A DNA stretch of 64,000 bases from Roseibium denhamense (GTDB lineage Bacteria; Pseudomonadota; Alphaproteobacteria; Rhizobiales; Stappiaceae): contig NZ_SMLZ01000103.1 of assembly GCF_009711415.1 (NCBI RefSeq), forward strand, positions 1-64,000, read 5' to 3'. This document shows positions 43,520-55,813 of this stretch, piece by piece. Position numbers and translations under genes: made by a program. A model generated the notes under the pieces. The model was not told the DNA's origin, ran no database searches, and saw only the letters and a list, made by a program, of their open reading frames with translations. Numbering within the stretch: position 1 is the first letter of the stretch; every line of letters starts with the position of its first letter.

Positions 43520-45349
43520 TCAGGCGGCTTTTGCCGGTTCGGGTTCTCCCTGTGCCGGATCGGCTGGCGCGGGTTGCGCCACAGCCCGGCTGCGTGCCAA
43601 GGCCGGTAGCGCGAGCTCTGACAGCTCAAGCGGCGGGTTTGTTTCTTCGGGAATGCGCCAAAGGCTCGACTTTGCCGCCAAAAGTCCCAGCACCTGTGTG
43701 GAGGTGCTGATTGCAATCAAGACAGCGAGAAGAGGCCCAATGGCGATCGGGACGATTGGCCAGGTCAGCGACAGCGGCTGCGTTGTAAGCCAGGCCAAGG
43801 CGAGCAGGCCGAACACCGTTTGAGGCCACAGTTTGCGGATGCTGAGGCCAACTGGAAGGCGGGTGACACCGCGGGCCTGGGCGCCCCAGCCGATGGTTTT
43901 TCCAAACACCAGCCCGCCCATGAAAATCGTATGCGCCACCGCCATGATGGGAGCAAGCATTGCTGCAAAAACGATTTCAGCGGCTACGCTCGCGACAATC
44001 CGGATGGGCCCGCCAAACGCCCGCCGGAGATCGCGGCGGACGATAATATCCGCGACAGTGGCAAGCTTCGGTGCAAACACCATGGTCAGCACCGTGAAAA
44101 ACAGTACGGCGCCGGTGTCCGCGCGGTAAGGAGATATATCGCTTGTCATTCCCAGAAGGGCTGCGGAGACCATAAAGCCGATCCAGGCAGGAGAGCCGAG
44201 GAACATCAGCATGGCCAGCACGAGTTGTGCGCGGCTCACCGGCAGCAATCCCTTCATACGAAGCAGGTGCTTGTACTGCAGGTTGCCCTGGCACCAGCGC
44301 AGGTCCCGCCGGATGAACTCAAGAAGATGCGGCGGGTTGACCTCGTAACTTCCAGTTTCCTGAGGCATTACGCGCACTTCATACCCGGCGCGCCGCATCA
44401 GTACGGCTTCAACCTGGTCATGCGACAGGATTGGACCGGAGAGCGGGCCTTTGCCGGGCAGGAGCGGCAACCGGCACTGCTCCATGAAGGGCTTTAACCG
44501 GATAAGCGCATTGTGACCCCAATACGGTCCGCAATCACCTTGCCACCAGGCACTGCCGATTGTGTAGGAGCGCATGCCAAGGCGCATGCCAAACTGAAAT
44601 ATGCGGGCGAAGGCGCTTTCGGCCGGCAATCCAACAACAAGGCTCTGAAGAATACCGACTTGAGGATTGGCTTCCATATGCCGGACAAGCTCAAGGATGG
44701 CATCGGCAGACATATAGCTGTCGGCATCAAGCGTCAGGGCGTAATCGTGTTGTGATCCCCAGCGGTCGCAGAAGTCTTCGATGTTTCCGGCTTTGAAGCC
44801 GGTGTTGTCGTCCCGGTGGCGGTACACCACGGTCAATTGTCCGCTGTACCGGTCGCGGAGCCGGTTGGCCATATCACGCTCTTCACGGGCGATTGCGTCC
44901 TGCGAACTGTCGCTGAGCACATATAGGCTGAAATGGTTTTGGAAGCCGGACCGGACCAGGTTGGCCGCCATGGCGTTCAACTTGATTTCGAGTTCACCGA
45001 CATCCTCGTCGCGAACACAGGACAACAACGCGGTCGAGCTGGTGACGGGCGCTTTGGGGTCTGCCTTTGTGATCGGACAGGCCGCTGCGGCCGGGTCTGA
45101 TGCGAGGCGCATGACCAGGAGCCCGATGACCGCATTCCAGAAGCCGATAATCGTCCATGGCAGGGTCACCATGAAACATCCGAGTACCATCAGATCAAGG
45201 ACCGAATAGCCGCCCGGAGAGAGTGTGAAGGCCATAAGCCCGGCAAGAGCAAGAAAACTTGTGGCCACGAGAGCGGCGAAAATCATGCGCCTGGCCGTGA
45301 TGGGGGATGTTCGAGACCCCGAGACTTGCGCGTCAGTGGCTTGAAACAT
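43520..45349 (-). CDS. opgH: Glucans biosynthesis glucosyltransferase OpgH/MdoH
   Basis: The protein of about 609 residues is a GT2 membrane enzyme that makes the beta-1,2-glucan backbone of osmoregulated periplasmic glucans. It has N-terminal membrane helices (about 20-90), a cytosolic domain with CVRDEDVGELE, LSDSSQDAIA, LTLDADSYM (DxD-like), and GPYWGHNALIR and RRDLRWCQGNLQ. Several C-terminal helices follow. ATG 45349 follows GGAAG; an upstream TTG at 45364 is possible. The usual partner opgG is not adjacent. Confidence 0.92.
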   Translation of the reverse strand: MFQATDAQVSGSRTSPITARRMIFAALVATSFLALAGLMAFTLSPGGYSVLDLMVLGCFMVTLPWTIIGFWNAVIGLLVMRLASDPAAAACPITKADPKAPVTSSTALLSCVRDEDVGELEIKLNAMAANLVRSGFQNHFSLYVLSDSSQDAIAREERDMANRLRDRYSGQLTVVYRHRDDNTGFKAGNIEDFCDRWGSQHDYALTLDADSYMSADAILELVRHMEANPQVGILQSLVVGLPAESAFARIFQFGMRLGMRSYTIGSAWWQGDCGPYWGHNALIRLKPFMEQCRLPLLPGKGPLSGPILSHDQVEAVLMRRAGYEVRVMPQETGSYEVNPPHLLEFIRRDLRWCQGNLQYKHLLRMKGLLPVSRAQLVLAMLMFLGSPAWIGFMVSAALLGMTSDISPYRADTGAVLFFTVLTMVFAPKLATVADIIVRRDLRRAFGGPIRIVASVAAEIVFAAMLAPIMAVAHTIFMGGLVFGKTIGWGAQARGVTRLPVGLSIRKLWPQTVFGLLALAWLTTQPLSLTWPIVPIAIGPLLAVLIAISTSTQVLGLLAAKSSLWRIPEETNPPLELSELALPALARSRAVAQPAPADPAQGEPEPAKAA

Positions 45350-45450
45350 TTTTGTGACTTCCAATCTGGCTGATCATCGCAATAGTGCGCATGTCAAAAT
45401 GTCCAATTGTTGACCGATGCTGTCGGCATCGAGCGAAAGATAAGATTCTG

Positions 45451-46461
45451 ATGGAGATCTGGCCGGTGACCCACGGCACACGGGAAATGCAAGCGCTTTG
45501 GTACACTGGTCCGCAATGCTGTGAGATGCGGATGGCGACGATGGCTGGACATGAAACAGGTGAGGTCTTGGTCGACACCCTGTACACCTGTGTCAGCCGT
45601 GGCACGGAAGGCCTCGTCTATCGTGGTGAGGTGCCCGAAACCGAATGGGAGCGCATGAGGGCGCCGTTTCAGGAAGGGGCTTTCCCCTTTCCGGTCAAAT
45701 ATGGATACGCCAATGTCGGTGTGGTCAGCGATGGGGCGCCCGACCTTTTGGCAAAAACCGTCTTTTCGCTCTTTCCTCACCAAAATGTCTTTTCCCTCGC
45801 AATGCAACATTTGGTGCCCGTGCCGGATCAAGTCTCTGCAAAACGGGCAGTTTTAGCGGCCAATATGGAAACGGCAATTAACGCTTTATGGGACGGAAAA
45901 CCATCACCTGGGGATCACATCTGCGTGGTTGGCGGTGGGGTTGTCGGCCTGCTAACTGCATACGTGGCCGCGCGTATTGCCGGATCAGCGGTTACGGTCG
46001 TGGACACAAACTCCGCACGGCGCTCCATCGCGGAAAAGCTGGGCGCGCGTTTTGCACTCCCGGAAGAAGCGCCAATTAATCAGGACCTTGTCTTCCACAC
46101 TTCAGCCTCGTCAGCCGGGTTGGAGACCGCCTTGAAGGCGGCCGGGAATGATGCCAGCGTCATCGAGATGAGCTGGTATGGGGCGGGCGGCGTTCTCGCG
46201 CCGCTGGGGGGCGATTTCCATTGCCGCCGTTTGAGGCTCGTTTCCAGTCAGGTCGGAACAATTCCGGCTGAACGGCAGGCCCGCTGGACATTCCGCCGCC
46301 GCCTTGAACTCGCGCTCAACCTGTTGGCGGATCCGGTGCTGGACAGTCTCATCACGCACGAGATCCGTTTCCTGGATCTCCCGGAGCACCTTCCCACCAT
46401 ACTGAACAAAAACGCAGATGTGCTGGCCGCCGTCGTGGTTTATGACCAGCCCACGCAATAA
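45451..46461 (+). CDS. Zinc-type alcohol dehydrogenase-like protein (first gene of PTPS operon)
   Basis: A medium-chain dehydrogenase-like protein of about 336 residues with an N-terminal GroES-like half and a Rossmann half (CVVGGGVVGLLTAYVAA, about residue 155, then VVDTNSARR). The catalytic-zinc signature GHE plus cysteine of ordinary alcohol dehydrogenases is not seen at its usual place, where CVSRGTEGLVYRGEVP stands. The closest picture is the BchC-like branch. It leads a run of four tightly spaced plus-strand genes and is divergent from opgH. The substrate is unknown; oxidation or reduction of a pterin side chain or sugar is only inferred. Confidence 0.7.
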   Translation: MEIWPVTHGTREMQALWYTGPQCCEMRMATMAGHETGEVLVDTLYTCVSRGTEGLVYRGEVPETEWERMRAPFQEGAFPFPVKYGYANVGVVSDGAPDLLAKTVFSLFPHQNVFSLAMQHLVPVPDQVSAKRAVLAANMETAINALWDGKPSPGDHICVVGGGVVGLLTAYVAARIAGSAVTVVDTNSARRSIAEKLGARFALPEEAPINQDLVFHTSASSAGLETALKAAGNDASVIEMSWYGAGGVLAPLGGDFHCRRLRLVSSQVGTIPAERQARWTFRRRLELALNLLADPVLDSLITHEIRFLDLPEHLPTILNKNADVLAAVVVYDQPTQ

Positions 46462-46497
46462 GTCCTTCCCTCCCATCCCCAATTTCAGGAACCCGTT

Positions 46498-46896
46498 ATG
46501 TTTGCAGTTGAAGTCCGTGACCATGTCATGATCGCCCATTCCTTCAAGGGAGACCTCTTTGGCCCAGCTCAGGCCCTTCACGGGGCGACCTTCGTGATCG
46601 ATGCAGCCTTTCTCGCCGAGACCCTTGATGAAAACGGTGTTGTTATTGATATCGGGCGGGCGCATGAGGCACTGAAAGAGGTTCTTGGTCCGCTCAATTA
46701 CAAGAATTTGGATGAGGTGCCGGAGTTCAAAGGCGTCAATACGACAACCGAATTCCTGACCAAGCATGTGCATGATCACCTGTCTCAGGCCGCGCGCGAT
46801 GACCGGCTGGGCCGTCCGGGTGGTGAATTACATGCGATCCGGGTCACCATTTCCGAATCCCATGTCGCCCGTGCCTGGTATGAGGCAAAGATCTGA
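46498..46896 (+). CDS. PTPS/QueD-fold protein lacking the catalytic residues
   Basis: The 132-residue protein has the length and outline of 6-pyruvoyl-tetrahydropterin synthase/QueD: IAHSF for the first zinc histidine, ALHGATF for the usual C-x3-HGH, VIDIGRAHEALKEVL, and a final ISESHVARAWYEA. Compared with QueD, the catalytic cysteine before HGH is missing, the third zinc histidine of HGH is alanine, and the catalytic LDHH is LNYK. It is therefore unlikely to do the QueD or PTPS reaction. The binding fold and pterin glutamate region may persist. It lies between the dehydrogenase and a glycosyltransferase. Confidence 0.75.
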   Translation: MFAVEVRDHVMIAHSFKGDLFGPAQALHGATFVIDAAFLAETLDENGVVIDIGRAHEALKEVLGPLNYKNLDEVPEFKGVNTTTEFLTKHVHDHLSQAARDDRLGRPGGELHAIRVTISESHVARAWYEAKI

Positions 46897-46900
46897 TTTG

Positions 46901-47953
46901 ATGCCGATCACAGCCTTCGCCTATCCGGGCGATCTCAATACGCCAACCGGCGGGTATGGATATGACCGGCGTATCATAGCGGAGCTGGAAGCGCTTGGAT
47001 GGCCTTTGCAGCCCGTGCCCCTTGGCGAAGGGTTCCCATTTCCTGCGCCGGGGACGCTGGATGAAGCAAAAGAGACCCTCTTAAGCCTTCCGGCGAACAG
47101 CACCATAATCGTCGATGGGCTTGCCTTCGGCACCATGGGGGATGTCGCCGAAGCGATTTCAGAACGGCACCGGATTGTCGCTTTGGTGCACCATCCCCTG
47201 TGCATGGAAAACGGTCTTCCGGTGGATCAGGCAAGAGGTCTTGAACACACGGAAGCCAAGGCACTTTCCTTTGCGGATCATGTCATTGTGACGAGCCCAG
47301 GCACGGCAGAGCAGCTCGGCGACCTCTTCAACATTCCCAAATCCCGGATAACCATTGCCCTTCCCGGGACCGACATTCCGGACGTCAGAGCTGGCCGCCC
47401 AGGTGATATGGTCAGGCTCTTGAGTGTTGGAACGGTCGTGCCGCGAAAAGGCTATGATCTTCTGTTCGATGCACTTGCAGACCTGAAAGAATATGCCTGG
47501 CATCTCGATGTCGTGGGCGGTGTCGAAGCTGCCCCCCATTGCTATGAAGCGCTCAAGAGCCAGCTCCATGCAGCCGCTCTCACAGATCGTGTGACATTCC
47601 ACGGAAGTGTCGTGCAAGAACAGCTCGACGCGTATTACCGGAGTGCGCATGTCTTTGTACTGGCGAGCCAATATGAAGGCTACGGCATGGCTTTCACCGA
47701 GGCGATTGCATATGGCCTGCCGGTGATTGGCAGTGGGGAAGGGGCTGTTCGCGGGACCCTGCCCAAGGGTGCGGCAATCTATTGTGAAACCGGCAACGTG
47801 CCCGCGATGAAATCAGCCCTTGAGAGCTTGATTGTAGACCGGTCTCAATGGCATAGGCTCGCCGACGCAGCCCGGAAAGCATCGGCTGATTTCCCGGCCT
47901 GGGCGGATACGGCAAAACAGTTTGAGAGCGTTTTGAAAGGGTATGCAGTGTGA
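46901..47953 (+). CDS. Glycosyltransferase, GT4-like
   Basis: A GT-B-fold transferase of about 350 residues. Its C-terminal domain has VGTVVPRKGYDLLFDAL (about residue 175), VTFHGSVVQEQLDAYYRSA and the donor-binding EGYGMAFTEAIAYGLPVIGS (E-x7-E, about 263-282). It starts four bases after the PTPS-like gene; ATG 46880 inside that gene is an alternative. The gene immediately downstream is a methyltransferase whose start overlaps its stop (GTGA). The acceptor is unknown; a pterin-derived molecule fits the neighbours but is inference. Confidence 0.85.
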   Translation: MPITAFAYPGDLNTPTGGYGYDRRIIAELEALGWPLQPVPLGEGFPFPAPGTLDEAKETLLSLPANSTIIVDGLAFGTMGDVAEAISERHRIVALVHHPLCMENGLPVDQARGLEHTEAKALSFADHVIVTSPGTAEQLGDLFNIPKSRITIALPGTDIPDVRAGRPGDMVRLLSVGTVVPRKGYDLLFDALADLKEYAWHLDVVGGVEAAPHCYEALKSQLHAAALTDRVTFHGSVVQEQLDAYYRSAHVFVLASQYEGYGMAFTEAIAYGLPVIGSGEGAVRGTLPKGAAIYCETGNVPAMKSALESLIVDRSQWHRLADAARKASADFPAWADTAKQFESVLKGYAV

Positions 47954-48750
47954 GCGGATTTTCGAGCGATTGGCTGGCCTTGCGGGAGCCATTGGATTTG
48001 GCTGCACGGAACAGCACCGTGGAGCACGGCTTCTTCGATTGTCTGCCAAAAAGCGATGTTCGTATCCTCGATCTGGCAAGCGGTGCCGGGTCGACCATGG
48101 CGGCTTTGTCGCGCGCGCTGCCTGGCACGATTGAATGGGTCTTGTCTGACTATGATCCAGCACTGTTGCAACGGTCGCGGGAACGCTGCTCGGAATTTCC
48201 GAACGCCAAGGTGGAAACGCTACAGCTGGATTTGAATGCCGGTCTGCAGACGTTGCCATGGGGCAAGGTTGACGCCGTCACCACGAGTGCGTTTCTGGAC
48301 CTGGTTTCCGTGGAATTCGTGGATCGGCTCGTCGAGATTGTCATGGCGTGCGGCGTGCCGTTTCTCGCAAGCCTGACATATGACGGGCGTGTTCAGTTTT
48401 CGCCAGAGCATCCAGCTGATCCGGCTGTGCATGAGGCGCATGACCAGCACCAGATTACGGACAAGGGATTTGGGGCCGCTCTGGGGCCCGGCGCGGCAGA
48501 TTACGCCATTGCAGCATTCAAAGCTGCCGGTGCAAATGTTGTGTCCGGCCGGTCCGATTGGCGGGCAGGGCCGGATGATGTGGACTTTCTTCTGATGCTG
48601 CTGGACGGCTGGCGGTCCCTTGCCGAAAGTTGCGGAGGCGCGGAAAATGAGATCGCAGACTGGTGGGCCGACCGTCATCAAAGGATTCTGAGTGGAACGT
48701 TAGAGTTGTGTGTCGGGCACTTGGATTTCGTAGTTCTCCCGAAGCGGTAA
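47950..48750 (+). CDS. Class I SAM-dependent methyltransferase
   Basis: The 266-residue enzyme has AdoMet motif I RILDLASGAGST (about residue 40), acidic motif VLSDYDP and TLQLDLNAGL, and a TTSAFLDLVS post-motif. It starts at GTG 47950 inside the stop of the glycosyltransferase. The C-terminal half (HEAHDQHQITDKGFGAALG) is not a standard small-molecule type I can name. It ends the operon; no further gene follows for 250 bases. Confidence 0.8.
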   Translation: MSGFSSDWLALREPLDLAARNSTVEHGFFDCLPKSDVRILDLASGAGSTMAALSRALPGTIEWVLSDYDPALLQRSRERCSEFPNAKVETLQLDLNAGLQTLPWGKVDAVTTSAFLDLVSVEFVDRLVEIVMACGVPFLASLTYDGRVQFSPEHPADPAVHEAHDQHQITDKGFGAALGPGAADYAIAAFKAAGANVVSGRSDWRAGPDDVDFLLMLLDGWRSLAESCGGAENEIADWWADRHQRILSGTLELCVGHLDFVVLPKR

Positions 48751-49000: not shown

Positions 49001-49249
49001 ATGAATGACACTATCCGCGGTCTCCTGGCTAAACACGGCAATCTTCCTGTTGCGGTCACCGACGTCGCCGATGCAGCCGACCTTTATGATGCTGGACTAT
49101 CGTCCTTTGCTTCGGTGCAGGTCATGCTGGCGCTCGAGGAAGAATTCGACATCGAGTTTCCTGAACATCTTTTGAACCGCAAATCCTTCTCTTCGATCGA
49201 GGCGATTGAAGGGGCTGTATCCGAGATCCTTGAAGAACAGGCGGCCTGA
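49001..49249 (+). CDS. Carrier protein (acyl carrier protein fold)
   Basis: The 82-residue protein has the helix-II attachment region DAGLSSFASVQVMLALEEEF (about residues 30-49), where the second serine of LSS is the likely phosphopantetheine site in place of the usual DSL. Acidic helix II and DIEFPEHLLNRKSFSSIEAI follow. This is a discrete carrier like those charged by SerRS-like amino acid:carrier-protein ligases in rhizobia. No such ligase is in the window. The next gene starts two bases after the stop. Confidence 0.85.
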   Translation: MNDTIRGLLAKHGNLPVAVTDVADAADLYDAGLSSFASVQVMLALEEEFDIEFPEHLLNRKSFSSIEAIEGAVSEILEEQAA

Positions 49250-49251
49250 TC

Positions 49252-50433
49252 ATGAACGTTGCCGGTAAAATCTCCCCCATGGCGCTCGCCGACCGGGCTA
49301 AACGGGCTGCGAAAGTCGCTGCCGAATTTGCCGATCAGGTCGACAAAGAGGGCCGGTTTCCTGCCGAAGGTATGGAAGCCCTCAAGCAAGAGCGCCTTTT
49401 GGGTGTGATGATTGCACCGGAAAACGGCGGTGAGGGCGCCAGCCTGATCGAGGTCGCTGATATTTGTACCATCCTTGGCCAGGCCTGTTCCGCGACAGCC
49501 ATGACCTATGCGATGCACCAGATCCAGATCGCGAGCTTGGCTGATCATGCAATCGGAAGCGAGTGGCATGCGAATTTCCAGCGCCGGATCTGCGACGAGC
49601 AATTGTTGATCGCCTCGGCGACCAGTGAGGCGGGCATCGGCGGCAACTTGAGAAACTCGTTGTGCGCGATTGAAGAGGAAGGCGGCATTGCCCGGTTGGA
49701 GAAGGATGCAACAGTCATCTCCTACGGCGCCAATTCGGATGCGATCATGGTCACGTCCCGGCGTCATCCAGACGCAGCCCATTCCGATCAAGTCGCGACC
49801 GTGTTCCTCAAAGACCAATTCACCCTTGAAAGAACGACGGTCTGGGACACGCTCGGCATGCGCGGCACATGTTCTGATGGGTTTATTTTCAAGGCTGAAG
49901 CCCCAGCGGAACAGATCCTGCCGAGACCATTTGCGGAGATCGCGGCTCAGAGCATGCTCGCCGTCTCGCACCTTCTTTGGGGCGCGCTTTGGTACGGCAT
50001 TGCCGCTGACGCATTTGCACGCGCTCAGAGTTTCGTGAAAGCGGCTGCCCGCAAGACACCGGGCCAGGTGCCTCCGGGCGCCTTGCGCCTGTCTGAGGCT
50101 TCCAGTCTGTTGCAGCTGGTCAAAGCCAATGTGGTTGCAGGCTTGAAGCAGTTCGACGAGTGCAAGGGGAACGAAGACGCGTTGAATGCCATGAGCTTCT
50201 CTGTTGCCATGAACAACGTGAAAATCGGCACGTCGCAAACGATCCTGACCATCATCAATCACTGCATGCTGATCTGCGGGATTGCAGGCTACAAGAACGG
50301 AACGCCGTTCAGCCTCGGCCGGCATCTTCGTGATGCGCATTCCGCGCAGCTCATGATCTCCAATGATCGTATTCTCGGCAACACATCAACGATGCTGCTG
50401 GTGAACAAGCAGGACACCAGCCTGCTGGGGTGA
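49252..50433 (+). CDS. Acyl-CoA dehydrogenase-like flavoprotein
   Basis: The 393-residue protein has the acyl-CoA dehydrogenase architecture: N-terminal helices, a middle beta domain (TSEAGIGGN, VWDTLGMRGTCSDGF) and C-terminal helices with ICGIAGYKNG and RDAHSAQLM. The catalytic base expected in the YEGT-type motif after RDA is replaced by ISND, and no other obvious glutamate takes its place. It probably binds FAD, perhaps acting on a carrier-bound substrate through another base. It is in one operon with the carrier protein. Confidence 0.85.
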   Translation: MNVAGKISPMALADRAKRAAKVAAEFADQVDKEGRFPAEGMEALKQERLLGVMIAPENGGEGASLIEVADICTILGQACSATAMTYAMHQIQIASLADHAIGSEWHANFQRRICDEQLLIASATSEAGIGGNLRNSLCAIEEEGGIARLEKDATVISYGANSDAIMVTSRRHPDAAHSDQVATVFLKDQFTLERTTVWDTLGMRGTCSDGFIFKAEAPAEQILPRPFAEIAAQSMLAVSHLLWGALWYGIAADAFARAQSFVKAAARKTPGQVPPGALRLSEASSLLQLVKANVVAGLKQFDECKGNEDALNAMSFSVAMNNVKIGTSQTILTIINHCMLICGIAGYKNGTPFSLGRHLRDAHSAQLMISNDRILGNTSTMLLVNKQDTSLLG

Positions 50434-50499
50434 ATGTGGTTTGAACTTGACGATTTGGCCGAAGTGTCTCTGACCGGAGAGCTGAGGCGAAAGGCAACT

Positions 50500-51498
50500 A
50501 TGACGAACAAGATCTTCCCGGATCTCGACCCTACGAGCTACCAAAGGCATGCCCTGCATGCGCAGGACCGGGATTGGCCGGAAACCAATTGCTACCTCGA
50601 TGTCTGGATCGAGGTGTTGCCAGCTCTTGGATACGCGCCCGAGGCCTGCTTGGGGTATTCGATCACCCAGGATTTTGAAGGAGATCAGTTCACTTTCTTC
50701 AAGGTGCCGCTGGAAGATCTTGAACGGCTGTACGGGCTGCGGGTCACCGAACTTGCGATTTATGATCGTGTCGAGACCCACGTTGCCGAGCAGATCGCAC
50801 GCGGACGCCTGTCGCTGGTCGAAGTCGATAGCTACTATTTGCCGGACACACACGGTATTGGCTACCGCCAGGCTCACGGCAAGACAACGGTTGCCATCAA
50901 CCGCATCGACTTTGAGCAGCGGTCGATGGACTACTTCCATGGTCTTGGTCTGCACCGGCTGGAAGGCGAGGATTTCGATGGTATTTTCTGGAGAAACGCT
51001 CCAGAAGGCGCGTTGCCCTTCCTGCCCTACACCGAATTCGTGAAGTTTCCCGAGGTCCGCCGGACTGAAGACCATGTGCGCGCAACGGCCTTGTTTCTCT
51101 TGAAGCAGCATTTGGAGCGGCGCCCGGCCAGCAACCCCGTCAAGGCATTCGCTGAAGTCTTTCCAGCCCAAGTTGAAGCTGTTGCGGAAAGGCCATTTGA
51201 GTATTTCCATCTCTATGCCTTCAATACACTGCGCCAGATGGGCGCCAACTACGAACTGTTCGCGGCCCATCTCGATTGGCTGAGCGGCAACCAGATTGAC
51301 GGATTGGCGGAAGCGTCAGCGCAGGCCCGGAAAATCTCTACAACGTCAAAAGCCGTGCAATTCCAACTGGCGCGTGCCGTCATGCGCAAGAAGTTCGATA
51401 AGCTTGTGCCCGCCCTGCAGCCTTGTGTTGACGCCTGGGATGCGATGGTAGAAAGCCTTGACAAGAACATCGCTATTTCGTCGGCTCTTGCCGCCTGA
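50500..51498 (+). CDS. DUF1839 family protein
   Basis: A protein of about 332 residues with FPDLDPTSYQRHALHAQDR, WPETNCYLDVWIEVLPALG (residues about 8-45), HGIGYRQAHGKTTVAI and HGLGLHRLEGEDFDGIF. This is the DUF1839 pattern, whose function is not established. Conserved histidine and cysteine in ETNCYLD and HGIGY suggest a cysteine- or transfer-type active site, but that is speculation. ATG 50500 has AAAGG at a good distance; the ATG at 50434 directly abuts the dehydrogenase stop and would add 22 residues. Confidence 0.78.
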   Translation: MTNKIFPDLDPTSYQRHALHAQDRDWPETNCYLDVWIEVLPALGYAPEACLGYSITQDFEGDQFTFFKVPLEDLERLYGLRVTELAIYDRVETHVAEQIARGRLSLVEVDSYYLPDTHGIGYRQAHGKTTVAINRIDFEQRSMDYFHGLGLHRLEGEDFDGIFWRNAPEGALPFLPYTEFVKFPEVRRTEDHVRATALFLLKQHLERRPASNPVKAFAEVFPAQVEAVAERPFEYFHLYAFNTLRQMGANYELFAAHLDWLSGNQIDGLAEASAQARKISTTSKAVQFQLARAVMRKKFDKLVPALQPCVDAWDAMVESLDKNIAISSALAA

Positions 51499-51530
51499 CG
51501 ATCTCATCATTTCCCTGACAAGAGGCCGCT

Positions 51531-54020
51531 ATGTCTCAAGGATCCGCGCTGGAAGAGAGACAGCTCACTGACGGCTGGCAATTGATGGTGACCGAGCCGG
51601 GGGCATATGAAACGGCCTTCGCGATCGAGCACGGTTGGGACTGGGTTGATGCCAAGGTTCCCGGCACAGCCGCACAGGCACTCCGTGACGCTGGCCGTTT
51701 TGATCGTGAGAACCCGGTCCCGCTGCATTCCAAAGATGTTTGGTACAAATGCTGGTTTACTGCCAATCCGGGCACTTATGTGATCGATTTTTCCGGTCTG
51801 GCCACTGTTGCGGAAATCTATGTGAATGATGAGCGTGTCCTTGAGACCGCCAACATGTTCCGCAGCTACACCATCATGACAGAGCTGACGCAAGAAGCTC
51901 CCGCTGCCAATACAATTTCCATCTGTTTCCGGGCACTTGAGCCCCTTTTGGCCAAGAAGGGCCCGCGTGCCCGCTGGAAACCGCAGCTTGCAAACTCGCA
52001 AGGCCTGCGCCTTTTCCGGACAACATTGCTCGGCCGCATGCCCGGCTGGTGCCCGGAAATCCATCCGGTTGGTCCTTATCGTCCGATAGTGCTGAGGCCG
52101 GTCGGTGCAAAGAGCTGCAAGCTGTTGAGCCTGCAGAGCACGGTCGGTGCCGATGGCAGCGGGGTGCTGTCCGTTGCCGTCGACATGCCGGGCCTGAGCG
52201 GCGAAGCACATCTTGTTTGCGGCACCGAAAGATCAGAGTTCACACGCCGAAGCGATGGGAAGCTTGAAGCCGGCCTCAAACTTGGATCCGTTCAGCCCTG
52301 GATGCCGCATACCCATGGCACACCGGCACTTTACGACGTTGTAGTAGAGGCAGACGGCGATGTTTTTTCCCTTGGGAAAACCGGGTTCCGGTCCCTTCAA
52401 ATTGACCGCGGTCCCAACGGAGATGCCTTCGGCCTTGTCGTCAACGATGTTCCGGTATTTGCCCGCGGGGCGGTTTGGACAAATGCAGACATCATCGGCC
52501 TGAGGTCGGACCGGGACGTGTATCGCCCGCTTCTGGAAGCGGCGCGCGATGCGGGAATGAACATGCTGCGGATCGGCGGCACGATGCTGTACGAGAGCCG
52601 GGCGTTCTTTGAGCTTTGCGATGAACTCGGGATCCTCGTCTGGCAGGATTTTCAGTTCGCCAACTATGATTATCCGGTGAAGGACGAGCAGTTCGTCGCC
52701 GAGGTTTCGGCCGAAGTCGCAGACCAGCTGTCTCACGTGCAAGGCTGCCCTTCGCTTGGCGTGCTGTGTGGCGGCAGTGAAATCTATCAGCAGGGCGCGA
52801 TGATGGGGCTGCCGGAAGCTAGGTGGAAGGGGCCACTGTGTGAAGACATATTGCCGCCGTTGGCCGCAACTCATCGCCCGGATGTTCCCTATGTTGCCAA
52901 CTCGCCAATGCGCGGCGTGCTGCCATTTTCTCCGAATGAGGGTGTTGCCCATTACTACGGTGTCGGGGCCTATTTGAAGCCGCTCGACGATGCCCGCAGG
53001 GCGGACGTCAAATTCGCGTCCGAATGCCTGGCCTTCTCAAATATTCCAGACCAGGCGACGCTCGACCGCGATTTGCCGGTCGCGCCGAGCCATGATCCGC
53101 GCTGGAAGCAGCGTGTACCGCGTGACCGGGGCGCGGGCTGGGATTTTGAAGATGTCCGCGATCACTATCTGAAGACCCTCTACGGGGTCGATCCGCTTCA
53201 ACTCCGCTATGGTGATCCTGCGGCCTATCTGGATTTGGGCCGCGCGGTTGTTTGCGATGTCATGGAACAGACCTTTGCGGAATGGCGGCGCGCCGGATCA
53301 AATTGCCGGGGCGGCCTGGTCTGGACGTATCAGGATCTTCTGCCGGGCGCCGGCTGGGGCGTGGTGGATCCGGACGGAGCCCCCAAACCGGTCTATTTCG
53401 CCTTGAAACGGGCTTTCCGTCCGCTTCAGCTGGCGGTCACGGATGAGGGGACGAACGGGCTCGCCATTCATCTGATCAACGAGTTGCCCGAAGACCGGCC
53501 CGTCACCATCGAGCTGCAGTGCTATCGCGAGGGGAAAACCCCTGTCGTCTCAGGCAGCCTGAACGCCGATTTGGAAGCCCGGAGCGCACAAACCCTTAAT
53601 GCCGCCGAACTGATTGGCGCGTTTTTTGACGTAACATATGCCTATCGTTTCGGTCCTCCATCGCACGATGTGGCTTCTGTGCGGATACTGAACCCTGAGA
53701 CGGGCCTCTGTCTCGCCGAAACGTTTCACTTCACGAGTGCGTTTTCACGATCCAGCCGGATCGATGCCGCTATTGAGGCTGAGGTGCTTGAGGAAAGTGG
53801 TGGCACAACAAAACTGGCGATCACGTCTGACCGGTTCTTGTGGTTTGCCCATTTTGAGTGTCCCGGACTGCGCCCGAGCGACAACTGGACCCATATCGCC
53901 CCGGGCAAGCGGGTCGAGTTTGCCTTCGAGCCTGGTCTTTCCAGAACGCATCAAGAGCCGCCCGGCTCAATCCGGTTGAAGGCGCTGAACCTCTCGAGAC
54001 CTGCGCATATCAGCCTTTGA
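51531..54020 (+). CDS. Glycoside hydrolase family 2, beta-mannosidase-like
   Basis: The 829-residue protein has an N-terminal galactose-binding-like beta domain (about 20-180: WYKCWFTANPGTYVIDFSGL), an immunoglobulin-like domain and a TIM-barrel (about 300-650: GMNMLRIGGTMLYES, DELGILVWQDFQFANYDYP). The likely acid/base glutamate sits in LCGGSEIYQQ and the nucleophile in FASECLAF, so both catalytic residues are kept. No signal peptide is visible, so it should act in the cytosol, unlike most polysaccharide-degrading GH2 enzymes. It follows the DUF1839 gene closely. Confidence 0.85.
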   Translation: MSQGSALEERQLTDGWQLMVTEPGAYETAFAIEHGWDWVDAKVPGTAAQALRDAGRFDRENPVPLHSKDVWYKCWFTANPGTYVIDFSGLATVAEIYVNDERVLETANMFRSYTIMTELTQEAPAANTISICFRALEPLLAKKGPRARWKPQLANSQGLRLFRTTLLGRMPGWCPEIHPVGPYRPIVLRPVGAKSCKLLSLQSTVGADGSGVLSVAVDMPGLSGEAHLVCGTERSEFTRRSDGKLEAGLKLGSVQPWMPHTHGTPALYDVVVEADGDVFSLGKTGFRSLQIDRGPNGDAFGLVVNDVPVFARGAVWTNADIIGLRSDRDVYRPLLEAARDAGMNMLRIGGTMLYESRAFFELCDELGILVWQDFQFANYDYPVKDEQFVAEVSAEVADQLSHVQGCPSLGVLCGGSEIYQQGAMMGLPEARWKGPLCEDILPPLAATHRPDVPYVANSPMRGVLPFSPNEGVAHYYGVGAYLKPLDDARRADVKFASECLAFSNIPDQATLDRDLPVAPSHDPRWKQRVPRDRGAGWDFEDVRDHYLKTLYGVDPLQLRYGDPAAYLDLGRAVVCDVMEQTFAEWRRAGSNCRGGLVWTYQDLLPGAGWGVVDPDGAPKPVYFALKRAFRPLQLAVTDEGTNGLAIHLINELPEDRPVTIELQCYREGKTPVVSGSLNADLEARSAQTLNAAELIGAFFDVTYAYRFGPPSHDVASVRILNPETGLCLAETFHFTSAFSRSSRIDAAIEAEVLEESGGTTKLAITSDRFLWFAHFECPGLRPSDNWTHIAPGKRVEFAFEPGLSRTHQEPPGSIRLKALNLSRPAHISL

Positions 54021-54049: not shown

Positions 54050-55813
54050 TTAGGCAGCGTCCGTCAGGTCCTTCGGTGCGCTTGATTGCGCTAGGGTGCT
54101 CAGATAGGTGCCGATTTCCTGCCTGGCCTTGTCCGGCAGGAAGTTATGATCGGAGTCTGGGATCATCATGACCGTCACATTCGGGAACTTGTGCAGCCCT
54201 TTTAGATCCGCGCCGAAATACGCCTTGAGCTGATCAACGCTCTCGTCATCAACGGTACATAGAATATGGACCTTTGTACCGCGCTGCCTCAGGGTTTCGA
54301 AGATGCCAAGTACTTCCTCCCGCATGCGCCCGAACTTGGAAGCACCGGGCAGAACAGCTGCGGAATACTGGGAGATTTTTTCCCGGAAGATTTTCCCGAA
54401 GGCGATTGCGACGGCCTTCAGCCGGATCTCGCCTTTGAACAATCGGACGAAGGTCTGCTTGTTCTTTAGCCGGTTCTTGTACTGAGCTATGGAGCGGTGC
54501 CCCATATTCTTCGGGTCGACAGGCTCGTCAGGGTCCCAAAGATACTTGAGCTGATTGATCAAAACGAGTTGGGTCACCCGCTCATCGCGCGCGGCGGCAT
54601 GGAAGGCCGAATAGGCACTGCTGCAGCGGCCGACAAGTGTCACCGGACCTTTGAACTGTTGCTCTGTTGTGTTCAAAATGTCGATAAAATCTTGCGTTGC
54701 GACGTCGGAATAAAGGACCACGCCGGAAAAGCCTGCTTTCGGGTCACTGTCCCCGGTATCAGCTCCGTCGAACCGCACAGCGGCAGTCCCATGAGACGCA
54801 AGATTCCTGGAACACAGGACATTCTCGCGCGCCCGGCCGCCATGATGATCGAACCCGCCGGTGTTTCCGATGATGAAGACGGGGGTGTCCTCACCGGCGT
54901 CCTTCGGTGCGCAGGTAATGCTGAAAAGCTGCTTTGTTTCTGTTTGTGTGAACTCGGCGAACTCATTGAAAGAAGGCCCGGATAAGGCGCACTTCCCGGC
55001 CATTGCAGGCAATGACTTTTCAGACTGAAGTGGTGCAGTTGCAGCGATCCACGCAATCACGTCCGAAATGAATTCTTCAGGTACGCGCGAAAGCAGGGGA
55101 TCGGCCATCAGCGCGTCATATCCATCAAACGGCCTGTATGTGAATTGTGCGCAGATACTTTGCAGGGCGTCGCGAAACTTCACCTCACCTGGCGTATCCC
55201 GGAAAATCGCTAGAACTGGCAAGTCCGCGCGGACAGGAAGCATGTCCGCTTTGAGTGCATCAATACCCTCAACAACGCCGCTCGGCAGGACCGTTCCATT
55301 TGCCTGCACGGCGTCCTGGTTTAAGAGCGATAGAGAAAGCCCTTCGGATTCGAATATGATTTTGGCGCGGAGTTTGATCTCACGGATGAAACGCCGGCCG
55401 TTTGTTACAGGCGCAGCCGATATCAAACCGGCAATCGTTGGCAGCTCATGCGCCAGCGTCTGCGCCACAAGTGCGCCAATGCCCAGTCCCAGGACAATAA
55501 CCCGCTTGCAACCTGTTCTGTCGCGGAGTTCCTGCTCAGCCTGCTTTGCAGCAAAGACCCAATCATCAAAAGTTTCGCCGCTGGGTGTGTCCAGAGAATC
55601 CACGGTTCCTGGATAGTCGAAGCGCAAAACCGGATAACCGCGCTCCGACAATTCACTGGCAAGAATACGGTACAATTTACGTGCACAGTGTTCGTCCGTT
55701 CCCCAGGTTCTGCAAAGAAGGACACCAGTCTCACCGGCCGTTCCGGAATCGGGGAGAGAGAGAAGTGCCGAAATTCCTTGGAAGCACAGAGGGGCAGTTT
55801 GGGAGCGGCGCAA
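54050..55813 (-). CDS. Double alpha/beta-hydrolase protein
   Basis: The 587-residue protein carries two alpha/beta-hydrolase folds in tandem. The first (about 25-260) has FDYPGT and an elbow reading VLGLGIGALVA, where the nucleophile position is isoleucine, so it is probably inactive. The second (about 300-580) has LVGRCSSAYSAF with an intact serine elbow and DSDHNFLPDKA supplying the histidine. Single-fold relatives occur in polysaccharide loci. It is convergent with the GH2 gene, with a 29-base gap. Confidence 0.72.
   Translation of the reverse strand: MRRSQTAPLCFQGISALLSLPDSGTAGETGVLLCRTWGTDEHCARKLYRILASELSERGYPVLRFDYPGTVDSLDTPSGETFDDWVFAAKQAEQELRDRTGCKRVIVLGLGIGALVAQTLAHELPTIAGLISAAPVTNGRRFIREIKLRAKIIFESEGLSLSLLNQDAVQANGTVLPSGVVEGIDALKADMLPVRADLPVLAIFRDTPGEVKFRDALQSICAQFTYRPFDGYDALMADPLLSRVPEEFISDVIAWIAATAPLQSEKSLPAMAGKCALSGPSFNEFAEFTQTETKQLFSITCAPKDAGEDTPVFIIGNTGGFDHHGGRARENVLCSRNLASHGTAAVRFDGADTGDSDPKAGFSGVVLYSDVATQDFIDILNTTEQQFKGPVTLVGRCSSAYSAFHAAARDERVTQLVLINQLKYLWDPDEPVDPKNMGHRSIAQYKNRLKNKQTFVRLFKGEIRLKAVAIAFGKIFREKISQYSAAVLPGASKFGRMREEVLGIFETLRQRGTKVHILCTVDDESVDQLKAYFGADLKGLHKFPNVTVMMIPDSDHNFLPDKARQEIGTYLSTLAQSSAPKDLTDAA

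Follow-up and report, generated by a model that had tools for sequence, protein, structure and literature searches.

The carrier protein cassette of Roseibium denhamense

The 64,000-nucleotide stretch of Roseibium denhamense DNA analyzed here (the window) lies on contig C22 of a genome of 4,806,378 bases (G000; 116 contigs, 100% complete). Four genes lie head to tail on its + strand at positions 49001-54020 and encode a small carrier protein (CP), an acyl-CoA dehydrogenase-like (ACAD-like) protein, a DUF1839 protein and a GH2 enzyme. A preliminary description of this DNA, made from its letters alone, had proposed these genes, their coordinates and their operon-like order, and the present analysis confirms all of this. 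The subject of the present report is the enzyme that would charge this carrier protein with an amino acid.

The first gene (49001..49249, +) encodes an aminoacyl carrier protein of 82 aa. It scores 113.5 bits against NF005480 (cut-off 72), also matches PF00550, and is similar to the PDB entries 4h2w and 2jq4 (E 1.3e-27 each). By the NF005480 score and the two structure matches it belongs to the Atu2571 family. The second gene (49252..50433, +) encodes an ACAD-fold flavoenzyme of 393 aa (PF02771). Its closest PDB relatives by sequence are amino-sugar N-oxygenases (3m9v, 4kcf, 3mxl and 4zxv), although the similarity is weak (E 1e-12 to 1e-9). These best solved relatives include the flavin N-oxygenases KijD3, ORF36 and DnmZ. 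Because the ACAD-like protein is nearest to such enzymes, an oxidation step at nitrogen is possible. Where the YEG-type motif with the catalytic Glu would presumably lie, the protein family invariantly reads AQLMISNDRI.

A junction of 66 nt (50434..50499, +) separates the ACAD-like gene from the third gene; in relatives this is the spot occupied by a SerRS-like ligase gene. The third gene (50500..51498, +) encodes a papain-like DUF1839 protein (PF08893, 438 bits), a predicted CP-dependent amide-forming transferase; we chose 50500 rather than 50434 as its likely start. The fourth gene (51531..54020, +) encodes a GH2 beta-mannosidase-like enzyme of 829 aa (PF22666; PDB 5n6u, E 1.1e-44), in which no signal peptide is seen by eye. 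Its likeness to GH2 beta-mannosidases consists of this match and two invariant glutamates, Glu417 and Glu498, which by motif we presume to be the acid/base and the nucleophile.

DUF1839 was found in 51 of the 87 genomes surveyed in the family, and all 51 carry the CP, ACAD, DUF1839 and GH2 genes together (the G061 locus is divided between two contigs). Wherever the ligase gene is present (47 genomes), it lies between ACAD and DUF1839, and GH2 follows DUF1839 in 51/51. The order CP-ACAD-ligase-DUF1839-GH2 is therefore a nearly invariant five-gene unit. The same unit is seen in two other sets. First, at least 526 stretches in a named collection encode a DUF1839 relative; among the best 80, which partly overlap with the family set because several records are shared, the ligase is present in 79 (once clipped by a contig end) and GH2 in all 80. 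The only ligase-less locus among these 80, L110, is one of the family genomes itself (G059). Second, an order-level sample of 297 genomes contains DUF1839 in 49, of which 38 are outside the family. All 38 outside-family loci have CP, ACAD and ligase, and 37 have GH2; in the remaining one DUF1839 stands at a contig end.

These counts (51/51, 80/80 and 37/38) make GH2 a core member of the cassette. The preliminary description had regarded GH2 as an addition in a locus lacking its ligase; this is ruled out, since GH2 also follows DUF1839 where the ligase is present. It had further held that its interpretation would fall if the four genes did not co-occur elsewhere, and they do so in every DUF1839-bearing genome of the family. 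Its assignment of the locus to the amino acid:CP ligase type, with ACAD-like and DUF1839 genes, holds as well, given a carrier of the Atu2571 family and the same gene order in relatives. Iyer et al. 2010 had already sketched the neighborhood, noting in it a glycosidase and a conserved ORF, and had predicted ligation, through an amide, to an amino sugar of the cell surface.

Two loci deviate in detail. At L282 (G290) the DUF1839 match is broken into two pieces that overlap and are in different frames. At L252 (G283) only 57% of the query is covered by the best GH2 piece, which begins +3600 from DUF1839, compared with the usual distance of about +1000; this displaced partial GH2 may reflect an insertion or a rearrangement.

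Ligase absence in four Roseibium genomes

No SerRS-like ligase was found in the 64-kb window, as the preliminary description had pointed out. The same is true of the genome as a whole: NF005479, the family of SerRS-like amino acid:[carrier protein] ligases, has 0 matches in it, and the five places matched by PF00587 (one of them at E 0.38) appear, from the sizes of their open frames, to be ordinary synthetases. These searches rule out a ligase relocated elsewhere in the genome. The locus thus has a carrier of the same family and a gene order identical to that of the known ligase loci (Bll0957; Atu2571 carrier), and differs from them in the ligase itself.

Ligase-family matches occur in 51 of the 87 family genomes. 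Forty-seven are above the cut-off, and the other four reach only 19-21 bits and are in genomes without DUF1839. Consequently, 47 of the 51 DUF1839-bearing genomes have a ligase, and the four in which none was detected are all Roseibium: G000 (the present one), G031, G051 and G059. In these four, ACAD and DUF1839 are separated by gaps of unequal length and sequence (66, 120, 85 and 15 nt, respectively) that are too short for a sizeable ligase remnant, the ligases being 302-303 aa long except for the two contig-edge pieces of G061. Among the listed rows of Stappiaceae ligases (L044-L094) two subtypes can be told apart, with about 62-66% identity between them, and in these rows ACAD identity to the window largely tracks ligase subtype. 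The two subtypes may differ in the amino acid used.

In a quick locus tree, built without bootstrap from CP, ACAD, DUF1839 and GH2 of 50 genomes (the split G061 was left out), the ligase-less genomes do not cluster. Four changes are forced by branches with SH-aLRT >=95, and all of them fall within a single subclade of 16 rows. Because the ligase has one and the same position wherever it occurs, we read these changes as four separate losses.

The losses raise the question of whether the rest of the cassette is decaying, with the ligase merely the first gene to go. One gene lost in four lineages is what such decay might produce. Moreover, in the one pair of moderate dS that includes a ligase-less genome, the dN/dS of the carrier protein is roughly double, about 0.10 versus 0.05 with the ligase; this speaks also against an intact pathway with a substituted enzyme. 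However, the other genes still have open frames of normal length and do not look decayed. The constraint on ACAD persists where the ligase is missing: its dN is 0.022 and its dS 0.66 for G051 versus G046 (without and with ligase, respectively), compared with 0.021 and 0.62 between G046 and G062, both of which have the ligase. The dN/dS ratio of DUF1839 is the same in these two pairs. The CP attachment motif GL[ST]S and the two glutamates of GH2 are kept in 51/51 genomes, and the ligase-less lineages are diverged, with dS near or over 1. We therefore consider decay very improbable.

A stand-alone adenylation enzyme

The genome contains 18 AMP-binding places; NCBIfam was used to classify 10 of them, and the distribution of two was traced through other genomes. 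One of the proteins, encoded on contig C105 (24332-26536), is an amino-acid adenylation (A) enzyme of 735 aa (TIGR01733, 444 bits). It consists of an AMP-binding core and a C-terminal domain with no fused carrier, as in a stand-alone adenylation domain of a nonribosomal peptide synthetase (NRPS), preceded by about 200 aa that may be the remnant of a condensation domain. In the PDB it matches linear gramicidin synthase A best, rather than EntF. The code D-V-W-H-F-S-L-V-D-K was read from motif windows in all six A orthologues, and we regard it as a serine-type specificity code. The code given in PMC3795760 for the serine-activating EntF domain of enterobactin synthetase is the same. The Roseibium enzyme differs from EntF-type serine NRPS in lacking both HHxxxDG and a carrier domain.

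The distribution of this gene parallels the absence of the ligase. At E<=1e-100 it is present in 6 of the 87 family genomes, the five orthologues outside G000 being 68-72% identical to it. Within the DUF1839-bearing set it occurs in all four ligase-less genomes and in none of the 47 with a ligase. Four further genomes have matches of only 40-47%, in larger frames of 1305-11849 aa. In the order sample, which includes only 12 genomes of the family, the gene is found at E<=1e-180 in G000 alone. Fisher's test of the A gene against ligase absence gives 4e-6 for the 51 genomes, 9.4e-5 for a 24-row clade and 5.5e-4 for the 16-row subclade.

At E<=1e-3, G000 and G059 each have three PP-binding places: an acyl carrier protein (ACP) of 78 aa, a protein of about 2540-2550 aa that is also present in ligase-bearing relatives, and the CP of the window type. 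Between ligase-less pairs the dS of the A core is 1.1-2.1, compared with 0.8-2.5 for ACAD and PTPS in the same pairs. Although near saturation, these values speak against a recent spread of the A gene and fit an old gene with reciprocal loss.

An acyl-CoA ligase (L188; 65-100% identity), followed as a control, is present in 4/4 ligase-less genomes, 5/6 ligase-bearing genomes and 1/2 genomes free of DUF1839; it was rejected as a substitute because it does not track ligase loss. The distribution of MbtH does not follow that of the A domain: it is present in 4/12 genomes, three of which carry the ligase.

From its distribution, its code and the lack of another partner in two genomes, the A enzyme would load the window-type CP with serine. 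On balance we think it probable that a seryl A domain has displaced the SerRS-like ligase and that the cassette passes a CP-bound amino acid to an amine by means of DUF1839. Full-text literature searches, covering few subscription papers, found no paper on a displacement of the SerRS-like ligase.

The A genes lie in varied surroundings. Those of the four ligase-less genomes have no common syntenic neighbor; one pair of frames near the A genes of G051 and G059 is 37% identical, at a different distance and on a different strand. In two neighborhoods inspected there is no NRPS or carrier gene beside the A gene. In G000 the gene is followed (L216:11490-14229) by frames that by eye resemble a DNA cytosine methylase and a transposase, a possible sign of mobility. 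In G065 and G067 (loci L220 and L221), two genomes without DUF1839, it is in a shared stretch with genes for an MBOAT-like protein, an 85-aa ACP, TRAP-like transporters and a large protein with a possible SGNH-type end, all named by eye. We read this gene set as Dlt-like.

The co-occurrence of A gene and ligase loss might also be accidental. The CP would then be charged by some other enzyme or by transfer of acyl-phosphopantetheine from CoA, and the A enzyme would serve a different carrier. Several observations are consistent with this possibility or weigh against displacement. First, the association rests on only four events: independent pairs agree 4/4, but with so few pairs a sign test has p 0.125 and could not have fallen to 0.05. 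The choice of the A domain was made post hoc among 18 places, two of which were traced across genomes; multiplying 5.5e-4 by 18 gives about 0.01. Second, the A gene is also present in G065 and G067, which lack both DUF1839 and the ligase; since these copies lie near their own 85-aa ACP, the enzyme can serve another carrier. G031 and G051 hold large NRPS frames that it could serve as well, and the absence of shared neighbors among the four A genes points in the same direction. Third, EntF-like A domains often require MbtH, which was not found in G000, and Pfam detects no condensation domain in the N-terminal stretch of the A protein. In addition, serine may mean a change of substrate, because the known SerRS-like ligases are described in PMC5370406 as loading Gly or Ala, although a table of ligase substrates in PMC9437257 also includes Ser.

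The tree and the cassette proteins add to these reservations. Tree changes are counted as gains or losses, so that the ligase may have been regained elsewhere, and the position of G000 is less sure because of its long end branch in the quick tree. In CP, ACAD and GH2 no residue separates ligase-less from ligase-bearing rows; in DUF1839 one column does (random quadruples: mean 0.04, maximum 2). The carrier protein thus shows no changes that would compensate for a new charging enzyme. Against an accidental co-occurrence speak the counts of 4/4 and 0/47, the lack of another unpaired carrier at E<=1e-3 in G000 and G059, and the failure of the control acyl-CoA ligase to track ligase loss. It is in our judgment unlikely.

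DUF1839 and the proposed pathway

A sequence-profile search of the PDB with DUF1839 gave no convincing relative; only fold comparison did. The AlphaFold model is of good quality (pLDDT 89, pTM 0.90), and Foldseek gives 19 matches at E<=1e-3, every one of them a chain of CcbD, of CtaG or of the AziU2-U3 complex; the CcbD chains have E-values of 2.3e-5 to 2.4e-4. In VIA-align CcbD ranks first (Z 20.6, rmsd 3.2, 283 residues) at a sequence identity of about 12%. Cys31, the candidate cysteine of a CcbD-type Cys-His-Glu triad, is invariant in 18 and in 55 aligned rows and, in the model, starts the helix 31-42. DUF1839 was earlier placed among papain-like enzymes in PMC10318531, which reports a C(T/S)H triad and offers acyl-CoA-dependent glycan processing as a guess. 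In PMC12945683 CcbD is described as accepting CP-bound proline on a cysteine and transferring it to a thiooctose, an amino sugar, at the amino group. By this likeness, DUF1839 may form an amide from a CP-bound amino acid.

The comparison with lincosamide synthetase (LmbC/CcbC, LmbD/CcbD) extends beyond the fold. According to PMC4351081, the A domain of that system stands alone, unfused to the carrier, and the ligase-less Roseibium set therefore shares the logic of lincosamide synthetase, in which an amino acid is joined to an amino sugar. The differences are in the code, which is for Pro or propylproline there and for Ser here, and in the location of the A gene, which is outside the cluster here.

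The following pathway can be proposed. The CP would be phosphopantetheinylated on the serine of its GLSS motif, and an amino acid would be activated and loaded on it, in nearly all relatives by the adjacent SerRS-like ligase and, in G000 and the three other ligase-less Roseibium genomes, by the stand-alone A enzyme, which is encoded elsewhere and would load serine in trans. The ACAD-fold flavoenzyme may oxidize either the loaded aminoacyl group or the acceptor. DUF1839, judging from its fold and its invariant cysteine, would then take the aminoacyl group on Cys31 and pass it in a CcbD-like manner to an amine, probably that of an amino sugar. The cytosolic GH2 might trim or hydrolyze a glycoside in the same pathway; its place here is a guess. 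If the mechanism is as proposed, then the ligase has been displaced by an unrelated enzyme while the carrier, redox, transfer and GH2 steps were kept.

An amino-acid-modified sugar had been suggested as a product in the preliminary description, and the prediction of Iyer et al. 2010 and the DUF1839 fold both agree with it. That description is thus supported in part: its locus type and its ligase gap stand, its sugar product is a sensible one, its role for GH2 does not hold, and the recurrent loss of the ligase and the probable substitute for it had been missed.

The CP of the four lineages might instead carry some acyl group other than an amino acid, the ACAD-like protein being an ordinary acyl-thioester dehydrogenase. 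The ACAD-family domains and the absence of a SerRS-like ligase would suit such a role. Against it, the ACAD-like protein is nearest to amino-sugar N-oxygenases, CP and ACAD are nearly unchanged from their ligase-bearing sisters, and the A domain that tracks ligase loss is one for amino acids. We regard this alternative as quite unlikely.

Displacement by the A domain can be put in a more specific form, to which we give an even chance: a ligase of the class-II synthetase type was displaced in four Roseibium lineages by an ANL-family A domain, cut from a serine NRPS and loading serine in trans; both enzymes were ancestral and each lineage kept one; and in the last step of the pathway the (perhaps N-oxidized) aminoacyl group is transferred to an amino sugar as an amide, in the manner of CcbD.

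The cassette is followed by polysaccharide genes, including those for a flippase, a GumK-like protein and glycosyltransferases (GT), in keeping with the polysaccharide locus that the preliminary description had placed downstream. They start with a gene on the - strand (54050..55813) for a double alpha/beta hydrolase of 587 aa (PF12697; TIGR03100, 86 bits, below cut-off). Each of its two alpha/beta hydrolase regions weakly resembles an exosortase-A-associated hydrolase. Ahead of CP is a block (45385-48750) on the + strand, encoding a zinc-type alcohol dehydrogenase-like protein (ADH; 45385..46461; PF00107, below cut-off), a PTPS/QueD-like pterin enzyme (46498..46896; PF01242, 76 bits), a GT4 glycosyltransferase (46901..47953; the ORF is listed from 46766 and the start at 46901 is our reading) and a class I methyltransferase (47950..48750). 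The product of this PTPS-ADH-GT4-methyltransferase block is perhaps a glycosylated pterin. PTPS is upstream of the cassette in 42/51 family genomes. Among the 80 named loci it is upstream in 12, which belong to Roseibium/Labrenzia, Pannonibacter and Stappia apart from a single record labelled Rhodobacterales. Adjoining the block is a gene (43520-45364, -) for an MdoH/OpgH-like glucan glucosyltransferase, over the cut-offs of both NF003958 and NF003962.

The CcbD-like fold of the tightly linked DUF1839 provides a concrete reaction to test. An ancestor with both charging enzymes, of which each lineage kept one, would imply that the charging step of this cassette is swappable. If the displacement is real, the amino acid used by the pathway would be suggested by the code of the A domain, and the exchange of ligase and A domain on a single carrier would connect two charging systems directly in evolution.

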